Assembly: GCF_008065375.1 (NCBI RefSeq)
Contig: NZ_VJYI01000001.1
Coordinates: forward strand, 868,001 to 932,000
Source: Nonomuraea sp. SYSU D8015
Lineage (GTDB): Bacteria > Actinomycetota > Actinomycetes > Streptosporangiales > Streptosporangiaceae
Direction of reading: 5' to 3'
Length of the DNA stretch: 64,000 bases
Part shown: piece after piece, positions 39,176-46,131 of the stretch
Numbering within the stretch: the first letter of the stretch is position 1
Layout: the number at the start of each line of letters is the position of its first letter
The notes under the pieces: generated by a model
Told to the model about the DNA's origin: nothing
The model's database searches: none
What the model saw: the letters and a program-made list of their open reading frames with translations, nothing else
Made by a program: the position numbers and the translations under genes

Positions 39176-39189
39176 ATGTAGGATCCTGC

Positions 39190-39375
39190 TCGTCGCTGGT
39201 TCGCCTCCTCGGGGGCGGAGCAAAAGGGAACCCGGTGCGATTCCGGGGCTGCCCCGCAGCGGTGAGCGGGAACGACCGCCGTCATTGTGCACTGGAGCGA
39301 TCTGGGAAGCGACGGCCATTAGGAGCTCGATCGAGCGTGCCCGCGAGCCCGAAGACCTGCCGGCGGCTGAGACTG
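39190..39375 (+). promoter_or_regulatory. Cobalamin (B12) riboswitch
   Basis: The core elements appear in order: AAAAGGGAACCCGGTGCGA (39222 on), TTCCGGGGCTGCCCCGC, GGTGAGCGGG, CACTGG, TCTGGGAAGCG and the 3' GCCCGAAGACCTGCCGG. This is the B12-box layout of adenosylcobalamin riboswitches. It leads into the class Ia ribonucleotide reductase operon. In Streptomyces the same arrangement shuts nrdAB off when B12 is present and the class II enzyme can work. Ends are approximate. Confidence 0.92.
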
Positions 39376-39467
39376 TCCATGGCCTCGAGGGAGGGCCGGG
39401 GGAGCGTCGCGGCCTGCCCGCCTGCTCTCGCGTGCCCTCACGGGGAGAGCTCGCGAGGAGAGAGCAC

Positions 39468-45255: not shown

Positions 45256-45366
45256 TCTCCCCCAGCCCGAATAAATGTGTGGCACGCGCGCCGATCACCC
45301 GTTTACCGTAGACATTGTCCAACGACGAAGGAGAACGCCGGCGGAGGCGGAAAGGGAGGCGGCGAA

Positions 45367-45435
45367 GTGCGCGACCTGAGCATCACGCGACCGCTCGCGG
45401 CCCTCCCCGAGCTGCCGCGAAGGCTTTCCGGATAA
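45367..45435 (+). CDS. Leader peptide ORF, 22 codons, Pro/Leu-rich
   Basis: GTG start with GGGAGG seven bases upstream (45354-45359), an excellent ribosome site. It begins MRDLSITRPLAALPEL and ends PRRLSG, then TAA. It has three proline codons (CCG, CCC, CCG) within 11 residues. Its last codons overlap the 5' arm of the first hairpin, so a ribosome at the stop would block that hairpin. It looks like an attenuator leader rather than a functional protein. Confidence 0.45.
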   Translation: MRDLSITRPLAALPELPRRLSG

Positions 45436-45486
45436 TCCACAAAGGATCGCCGGAAAGCCGTCTCGAACATATCCGAGGCGGCTTTT
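45422..45486 (+). promoter_or_regulatory. Two mutually exclusive hairpins (attenuator) before tRNA-Pro
   Basis: Hairpin 1: GGCTTTCCGG (45422-45431) pairs perfectly with CCGGAAAGCC (45450-45459). Hairpin 2: GCCGTCTCG (45457-45465) pairs with CGAGGCGGC (45474-45482) with one G-U pair, followed by TTTTCC, an intrinsic terminator. AAAGCC (45454-45459) belongs to both, and GGCTTT occurs at both ends, so only one hairpin can form at a time. Confidence 0.65.
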
Positions 45487-45496
45487 CCATTCGTAG

Positions 45497-45572
45497 CCGA
45501 GTGTGGGGGAGTTTGGTCACCCCGCCTGCCTTGGGAGCAGGAGCATCGCAGGTTCGAATCCTGCCACTCGGA
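45497..45572 (+). tRNA. tRNA-Pro (TGG)
   Basis: Acceptor CCGAGTG/CACTCGG, D arm GGGGAGTTTGGTCACCCC, anticodon arm CCTGC-CTTGGGA-GCAGG with anticodon TGG, T arm GCAGGTTCGAATCCTGC. It has G37 as expected for proline. No CCA is encoded. The acceptor begins with C rather than the more usual CGGGGTG of actinomycete proline tRNAs, and the D loop is unusual. It is preceded by the attenuator and followed by a hairpin at 45576-45597. Confidence 0.82.
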
Positions 45573-45575
45573 CGA

Positions 45576-45597
45576 CGGCCCTGAAAGAAAAGGGCCG
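45576..45597 (+). terminator. Terminator hairpin after tRNA-Pro
   Basis: CGGCCCT pairs perfectly with AGGGCCG around GAAAGAAA. It starts four bases after the tRNA end. No U-run. Confidence 0.6.
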
Positions 45598-45811
45598 CGG
45601 GCAACGGCCTGGCCGACGGGAATGGCGCCCCCCGGCCGGACCAAGCCCTCACCCCGGGCCCGGCCCACGCCAGCCCCGCCCGGGGTCCAGCGCTCCAGCC
45701 CAACCGGCAGAGAGGTGCCGTCTTGCCGCCGAAGTTCATCGCCGTCTCGGACTCAAGTACAAGATGAACAACGAGCTGGGCGAAAGAACGGCCGACGTAG
45801 GCCGGTACCAG
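45598..45811. other. 214-bp gap with a degenerate tRNA D-arm
   Basis: No protein gene was recognised. AGCCCAACCGGCAGAG (45697-45712) looks like a tRNA D arm of the same kind as in the tRNA at 45855, and the following 60 bases cannot be folded into a good cloverleaf. It may be a decayed tRNA. Confidence 0.35.
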
Positions 45812-45852
45812 TCGCTTGTGGCGAAACTTCGGTAGACGCGCCGGACTCAGCT
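45812..45852 (+). pseudogene. tRNA-Leu (CAG) 5'-half remnant
   Basis: TCGCTTG-TG followed by GCGAAACTTCGGTAGACGCG is the leucine-tRNA D arm (GCGGAATTGGTAGACGCG in standard genes). CCGGA-CTCAGCT is the 5' anticodon stem and loop with anticodon CAG and U33. The 3' stem that should read TCCGG is missing and the sequence passes straight into the next tRNA. Confidence 0.5.
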
Positions 45853-45854
45853 AA

Positions 45855-45929
45855 GCCCTTCTAGCCCAACTTGGTAGAGGCCCACGGCCCAGACCCGTGG
45901 TGTTCGGGGTTCGAGTCCCCGGGGGGGCA
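45855..45929 (+). tRNA. Atypical tRNA, anticodon CAG (Leu-like, short variable loop)
   Basis: Acceptor GCCCTTC pairs with GGGGGGC (two G-U pairs). D arm GCCCAACTTGGTAGAGGC, anticodon arm CACGG-CCCAGAC-CCGTG, five-base variable loop, T arm CGGGG-TTCGAGT-CCCCG, discriminator A. Position 33 is C, not the near-universal U, and a CAG anticodon would be leucine, yet the long leucine variable arm is absent. Short-armed leucine tRNAs of this form occur in actinophage and plasmid tRNA arrays. It may be non-functional. Confidence 0.55.
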
Positions 45930-46131
45930 CACACTTATAGGGAAATTGCACAGCGCCCTCTGCGAGGGACCCAGAGCAGGAACTTCCCCAGCCGGTAGGG
46001 CGGAGCAGCGAAGGGACCAGAGCACGGGACTGCCCGGCTGGAATTGGCCGGGGAGTGACCCGGGCGGCAGGCGCCACAGCCACGGCATCACCACGATTGC
46101 CTCCTATAGATTGCCGAACCCCCATCAGGCG
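45930..46131. other. 202-bp gap
   Basis: Nothing was recognised between the atypical tRNA and the transporter pseudogene. Confidence 0.5.

Follow-up and report, generated by a model that had tools for sequence, protein, structure and literature searches.

A predicted leader-peptide attenuator ahead of an auxiliary tRNA-Pro gene in Nonomuraea, with related units before other spare tRNA sets

Results

Organization of the tRNA-Pro unit

The window, that is, the whole stretch of 64,000 nucleotides analysed here, comes from the 12.4-Mb genome of Nonomuraea sp. SYSU D8015, and all the features of the unit described below lie on its forward strand. After a divergent dsbA-type gene, the unit comprises, in this order, a promoter-like element, a leader ORF, a first hairpin (hairpin 1), a terminator and a tRNA-Pro(UGG) gene. 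The promoter-like element, TAAATnnGTGGC-N20-TACCGT (45272-45309), was recognized as a sequence pattern with fixed spacing. The ribosome-binding site AAAGGGAGG (45351-45359), a GGGAGG site, precedes a leader ORF of 22 codons, VRDLSITRPLAALPELPRRLSG, which runs from the GTG at 45367 to the TAA at 45435, contains three Pro codons and is assigned from its sequence, from its relatives and from a frame control across the family. Hairpin 1, the predicted antiterminator (45422-45459, by folding), pairs GGCTTTCCGG at 45422-45431 with CCGGAAAGCC at 45450-45459, its 5' arm being the end of the leader ORF beside the stop codon. The terminator hairpin (45452-45487, by folding and covariation) pairs 45452-45465 with 45474-45487, has AAAGCC in common with hairpin 1 and carries a short U-run that lies partly within the stem. 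The tRNA-Pro(UGG) gene, an auxiliary copy at 45497-45573, was identified by both ARAGORN and Rfam (tRNA, 59.9 bits).

The ORF with its good ribosome site and three Pro codons, the 10-bp hairpin on its end, the terminator sharing AAAGCC and the tRNA-Pro gene behind it had all been proposed in a first, sequence-only reading of this DNA and were recovered here. The hairpin which that reading took to close the tRNA does exist (45577-45597), but it lacks a U-run and belongs, as the first of several hairpins, to a longer conserved RNA. The latter, termed RNA X (45573-45688), is a conserved structured RNA with three hairpins predicted from alignment and folding. Further downstream, ARAGORN calls a tRNA-Leu(CAG)-like gene without a long variable arm, probably decayed, at 45855-45930, and a fragment similar to a class II tRNA-Leu 5' half is seen at about 45815-45850. 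Elsewhere in the window, a Cobalamin riboswitch at 39181-39378 (Rfam, 102.5 bits) lies upstream of what appears, from a look at the sequence, to be a ribonucleotide reductase gene pair.

A simple terminator and promoter scan did not list the window terminator and gave no sigma-70 promoter match for the window unit. The pattern WAAWNNNGTGGC-N20-TANCGT, on the other hand, occurs at exactly two sites in the window genome, namely in the window unit and upstream of a seven-tRNA array on contig C37. The leader is placed between this promoter element and the tRNA, and the gap from terminator to tRNA amounts to 9 bases, which leaves no room for a promoter there. In other genera, the same pattern is also found upstream of ordinary protein genes (L224-L249), and it may therefore be recognized by one specific sigma factor.

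Two competing hairpins conserved across the genus

Folded alone, hairpin 1 reaches -25.3 kcal/mol (z -5.45 against shuffles) and the terminator hairpin -23.8 kcal/mol (z -5.02). Since they share AAAGCC, the two structures are mutually exclusive, and the competition postulated between them is borne out in the predictions, where the winner depends on the folded length: the terminator prevails over hairpin 1 in a 76-base piece, and hairpin 1 is retained, with a shortened second hairpin, in a 191-base piece.

A DNA match to the window unit is present in 38 of the 54 genomes of the genus (E <= 0.001). It extends to the hairpins in 28 of the 30 loci that were fetched, the weaker matches covering little beyond the tRNA. 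In the alignment of the Nonomuraea loci, the ribosome site, the ORF end and both hairpins are preserved. When frames were traced upstream from the stop motif in hairpin 1, 27 of the 30 loci gave an ORF with a ribosome site, one locus being left out for too little upstream sequence (L020) and two because they have no leader motif (L029 and L030). These 27 orthologous leaders have 12 to 26 codons, end in TAA, TAG or TGA, and are preceded by ribosome sites of the AAAGG/GGCGG type upstream of the start.

The covariance analysis suggested earlier, carried out with 28 sequences, favours the terminator, formed in 94.6% of pair cells and with a covariation score above all slid controls. For hairpin 1 the outcome is mixed, since pairing is kept in 93.5% of pair cells but covariation does not exceed the slid controls. 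Two-sided changes are few in both hairpins and covariation is weak overall. Both hairpins are nonetheless kept across the genus, whereas their lack of conservation would have told against the attenuator. A covariance model of the hairpins (R1) yields a single strong match in the window genome, which is the window unit itself. Furthermore, single-base codon differences among close leaders are synonymous in 44 of 101 cases versus 29.8 expected, a modest signal as the pairs are non-independent.

The codon content of these leaders is distinctive. Pro is present in all 27 and makes up 18.8% of their residues versus 6.5% in the long ORFs of the window, and Leu accounts for 16.8% versus 9.3%. A Pro codon is located at position -8 or further upstream of the stop in 27 of 27 leaders, so that a ribosome stalled there would leave hairpin 1 free, and at -9 in 20 of them. 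This -9 codon is CCC or CCT in 19 of the 20 cases, although the tRNA has the anticodon UGG, with which CCC and CCT could be read if U34 were modified. Arg is likewise abundant (21% of residues versus 9.4% in long ORFs) in a unit without tRNA-Arg. Its strong enrichment is seen just before hairpin 1, at codons -6 to -4: of the 27 leaders, 23 have Arg at -5 and 22 have it at -4.

RNA products of the unit

The tRNA-Pro(UGG) gene shares 74% identity with the ordinary tRNA-Pro(UGG) of the genome, which is located elsewhere, and is, judged by sequence, a diverged second copy. Downstream of it, about 115 bases are common to all 30 loci. In the 29 loci aligned, after exclusion of L021 because of an insertion, RNA X shows a mean column identity of 89%, a conservation so high that covariation says little about its structure. 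Its loops include two, UGGCG and CGCCA, that by eye complement each other, and no relevant Rfam family was found for RNA X or the leader. An RNA X model matches 21 of the 24 genus genomes that had not yet yielded a good locus (E <= 1, several matches being weak) as well as one genome of another genus. A pattern search returned 40 stretches, of which 34 belong to Nonomuraea, three to Spongiactinospora and one each to Microtetraspora and Thermocatellispora, the last stretch being unrelated. In all, the element was recorded at 45573-45688 of the window and in L002-L030, L043, L044 and L095-L115.

Among 23 RNA X loci classed by eye, 12 have the promoter followed directly by RNA X, with neither leader nor tRNA; 10, including one duplicate, have leader and attenuator with no tRNA-Pro between; and one has tRNA-Pro. 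By these classes, RNA X is the more constant product of the two, with tRNA-Pro being optional. Nine leaders without tRNA-Pro keep 12% Pro, a figure drawn from few sequences. Leaders are also present in L043 and L098, where no tRNA is called nearby.

In 21 of the 30 related loci ARAGORN reports a tRNA-Leu gene downstream, and leucine therefore probably also counts among the amino acids sensed. The tRNA-Leu(CAG)-like gene of the window itself falls below the Rfam tRNA gathering score and has, by eye, a C at position 33. In L006, L012 and other loci, a tRNA-Leu(CAG) with a canonical cloverleaf and no long variable arm (class I) is found past RNA X, and class I tRNA-Leu(UAA) and tRNA-Leu(CAA) genes also occur in the window genome (L084, L093).

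A wider family of leader units

Ten further R1 matches were inspected, of which six lie ahead of tRNAs and four do not. Some of the leaders seemed to fit the tRNAs behind them: VKFETIMRRRMRRILLMPRQASG is upstream of tRNA-Leu, Met and Arg, and VNTMPKRGTQPGQGPMSRQASG is upstream of tRNA-Pro, Met and Gly. The match between leader and tRNAs was written down as a hypothesis, and the family (341 genomes) was then searched with three queries, one for the attenuator pattern, one for the promoter with its constant spacing of 20 bases, and one for TTGACAACTCCANAGNGNAA after the terminator. The last sequence follows the terminator in many arrays and resembles the boxA antiterminator of rRNA operons. In total, 17 further groups of auxiliary tRNA genes or arrays, spread over eight genera of Streptosporangiaceae and one of a second family, were found to be preceded by the layout of the window unit. 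RNA X is absent from these other units, whose tRNAs match their leader. The window unit is thus best described as one case of a family of predicted switches, present in Streptosporangiaceae and, outside them, in one genus at least.

The second unit of the window genome, on contig C37, has seven tRNAs and the leader MRYAATTLEQERHLFRRTGVYGCALIGPASG, in which 7 of 7 amino acids of the array are found. It was detected through the promoter and tRNA search and is missed by R1, which is therefore a poor detector of the wider family. The reversed control of the attenuator pattern gave about 22 matches, implying that most matches outside the genus arise by chance, and only L184 and L215 were accepted from it. 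The promoter pattern had 6 control matches, and its matches outside the genus were set aside, those listed being mostly before protein genes. Of 31 boxA-like matches, 12 were set aside as having no tRNA arrays and one was not fetched. The sequence TTGACAACTCCACAGNGGA, which also resembles the rRNA boxA antiterminator, lies between terminator and array in L258, L259, L261, L266, L267, L271, L274, L275, L277, L304-L306 and others, and similar sequences are also found ahead of some protein genes (L276, L284, L288 and others). L263 was dropped because its leader is lost, and L115 because its sequence is that of L100.

A search at the level of the class (345 genomes, 126 genera) returned three arrays with leaders, all in one genus of the second family; the pattern was strict, so that rarity there says little about other families. 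The same three arrays came back when the search was repeated over 35 genomes of the second family. Viral contigs gave one match, without tRNAs, and phages 102 matching records, the match covering no more than about 10% of the query in any of the 15 listed. For plasmids, 22 records match, only two of them, both from Nonomuraea, over a substantial part. A linear plasmid of Nonomuraea sp. NBC_00507 (NZ_CP107854.1, L308) carries 35 tRNA genes for 20 amino acids behind one attenuator leader.

The leader peptide matches the tRNA array

Across 18 groups with full arrays, 102 of the 113 array amino acids are found in the leader body, defined as the leader minus the first and the last three residues. 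When arrays are permuted among leaders, the mean is 74.0 (sd 4.8, maximum 95), and none of 20,000 shuffles reaches 102. The grouping was made by hand: the first member of the C37-type group represents 12 units, and L117 and L120 were counted with the window-type group, not as separate groups. Of the 247 amino acids missing from an array, 114 (46%) are present in its leader. Arrays with 12 amino acids or fewer score 59 of 60 versus 40.6 when shuffled, and the 13 units found after the hypothesis had been noted score 87 of 97 versus 66.0 (maximum 83).

Leaders were picked by eye, from a ribosome site and a stop in hairpin 1, a possible bias that is only partly removed by the frame control: the leader frame covers 73 of 74 amino acids, versus 41 and 48 for the other forward frames and 44-55 for the antisense ones. 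This control used the arrays as first fetched, cut at locus ends, with L215 represented by the first 4 of its 35 tRNAs. With full arrays coverage goes down from 73/74 to 102/113 and significance is kept. Thirty random choices of group representatives were applied only to the cut-array version (73/74) of the permutation test.

The misses within the test set are Tyr in L118, Asp and Val in L277 (2 of 15) and Lys, Met and Val in L304 (3 of 18). In addition, the leader of the NBC_00507 plasmid array, also in the test set, misses 5 of 20 (Glu, Asn, Thr, Val and Tyr), and an array that covers all 20 amino acids tests little. Outside the test set, L305 misses 5 of 19, L306 2 of 18 and L275 1 of 10. 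A Trp-like gene seen by eye in L274, L275 and L277, with no ARAGORN call, was left uncounted.

Among the 12 C37-like arrays, Cys is found in 6 of 6 leaders with tRNA-Cys versus 1 of 6 without (Fisher P 0.015, with related sequences), and the corresponding match is not significant for Tyr (P 0.15) or Val. Codons of the isoacceptors present are not preferred (91 of 146 versus 85.3 expected, P 0.165); in this test the window ORF, which supplies 2 of the 146 codons, was read one base off. The match between leader and array is at the level of the amino acid and not of the isoacceptor.

Geometry of the predicted attenuator

In folding predictions, the ORF end base-pairs with the 5' arm of the terminator in 68 of 70 leaders, L272 and L024 being the failures. 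At least 7 pairs are formed in 65 of the 70, versus 26% after shuffling of the upstream part; shuffled sequence of equal G+C content pairs over at least 3 bases in 51% of cases. When the bases up to +12 are masked, as by a ribosome at the stop, the terminator is predicted in 69 of 70, a result of geometry only; the exception, L102, is a decayed case that was kept among the 70. The footprint of a ribosome reaches about 12 bases ahead of its A site. With such a footprint, a ribosome stalled at -9 would free the arm of hairpin 1 and one at the stop would cover it, so that stalling would permit and completion of the leader would stop transcription.

Divergence of the auxiliary tRNAs

Seven auxiliary tRNAs of the window genome have an ordinary counterpart bearing the same anticodon, with which they are 54-74% identical. 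This is about or below the median of 72% between ordinary isoacceptors that differ in anticodon (51 pairs). In the anticodon loop, three of the seven differ from the ordinary copy at position 32, one differs at position 37 and three do not differ. These seven tRNAs constitute an extra set distinct from the ordinary one, a feature of sets of the Anabaena trn type.

Discussion

The reading that we hold with good confidence is that a trp-type, ribosome-mediated transcription attenuator controls these spare tRNA genes, where transcription, stalling and the direction of regulation are what we infer. A peptide-controlled attenuator for a tRNA, as first suggested for the window unit, remains the best explanation of leaders that contain Pro in 27 of 27 cases and of matched leaders ahead of other tRNA sets. 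RNA polymerase would start at the upstream promoter and a ribosome would follow on the leader ORF. With ample charged tRNAs, the ribosome would reach the stop and cover the 5' arm of hairpin 1, upon which the terminator would fold and the downstream RNAs would remain unmade. If it stalled at a codon that cannot be decoded (Pro or Leu in the window), hairpin 1 would form and block the terminator, and tRNA-Pro(UGG), RNA X and, where intact, tRNA-Leu would be transcribed. Each unit's leader holds codons for the amino acids of its own tRNAs, up to about 15 before long arrays, and production of the spare tRNAs would probably be restricted to conditions in which the cell has trouble translating these amino acids.

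Any block of leader translation would also free hairpin 1, and the leader could accordingly act as a uORF attenuator of the antibiotic type, which senses ribosome inhibitors or failed initiation in general and not a shortage of particular charged tRNAs. Leaders of whiB7 or erm genes are attenuators of this type. A functional parallel exists in the trn array of Anabaena, which is induced by translation inhibitors according to passages of PMC10272220. However, peptide sequence varies among units and peptide composition follows the set of tRNAs; codon sensing accounts for this pattern, and neither a general nor an arrest-peptide sensor does. We consider such a general sensor improbable.

Less probable still is that the attenuator serves RNA X, with tRNA-Pro as a passenger and the richness of the leader in Pro as an incidental trait. 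More genomes carry RNA X than tRNA-Pro, and the loci in which RNA X directly follows either the promoter or the leader and attenuator would suit this explanation. Against it, the other units carry tRNAs that match the leader and yet have no RNA X, and the Pro content of the window-type leaders is higher with tRNA-Pro than without it, a comparison that involves few sequences in the latter class. Finally, terminators upstream of genes are common and that of the window has a short U-run, but the idea that the hairpins are a mere terminator or processing site, with an untranslated ORF and a tRNA transcribed from its own promoter, is very unlikely in view of the frame-specific match of leader to tRNAs, the position of the promoter element upstream and not downstream of the leader, and the slight excess of synonymous changes among non-independent pairs.

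Under the attenuator reading, the natural trigger deserves comment. More tRNA helps against a lost tRNA and helps poorly against a missing amino acid, and for this reason we favour tRNA damage as the trigger, with lower confidence than the attenuator itself. Tentatively, the units may be seen as test-sentence circuits, in which one unread word would free the whole set, the trigger would be the destruction of housekeeping tRNAs and the diverged spares would escape the attack. In that event, each spare set in actinobacteria or on their plasmids would be guarded by a peptide gene that spells its amino acids, and the destroyers of housekeeping tRNAs would be tRNA-cutting toxins or defence nucleases.

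Attenuators are a textbook control of biosynthesis genes; here they would control the adaptors of translation itself, and one leader would read many amino acids. Spare sets under attenuation would offer a directly testable reason for the large divergent tRNA arrays of bacteria and plasmids, a long-standing question. The leader would also predict which shortage each array answers.

Several known systems can be compared with these units. The T-box riboswitch also couples tRNA charging to transcription termination, and it does so by binding uncharged tRNA directly, without translation. Rfam matched no T-box in the window at the gathering score, and none within 45290-45960 at E <= 5. As to tRNA arrays, the units of Mycobacterium (PMC5966550) are similarly dense clusters of extra tRNAs in actinobacteria, unlike the window unit, which is not itself an array; the words promoter, leader, attenuator and terminator are absent from the portion of that article covered. 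The trn operon of Anabaena sp. PCC 7120 is silent until translational stress and is repressed by TrcR, as reported in passages of PMC10272220. Like the units described here, it is a second tRNA set, some of them on a plasmid, silent in ordinary growth (which for the present units we infer) and meant for translational stress. Its control is by the repressor TrcR, whereas the present units would be under a predicted leader-peptide attenuator, and leader, attenuator and terminator have 0 occurrences each in those passages.

The closest relatives in mechanism are the classical leader-peptide attenuators, such as those of the trp and his operons in enterobacteria. Both have a short translated leader with regulatory codons and competing antiterminator and terminator structures, with the position of the ribosome as the sensor. 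Within Actinobacteria, leader-peptide attenuators of trp, leuS and trpS genes have been described (PMC1262725), in passages that hold nothing on leaders that target tRNAs or contain codons for many amino acids; four tRNA terms are absent from PMC2965389. No earlier report of such leaders before tRNA genes was found in the open-access literature, most subscription journals being outside its scope. The mechanism is therefore classical, and the tRNA-gene target together with the many-amino-acid leader is, as far as we searched, undescribed. While classical attenuators target biosynthesis or synthetase genes, the present units would target a diverged extra tRNA set, and their leaders, unlike the classical ones, combine codons for several amino acids, as many as about 15, in agreement with the array that follows.
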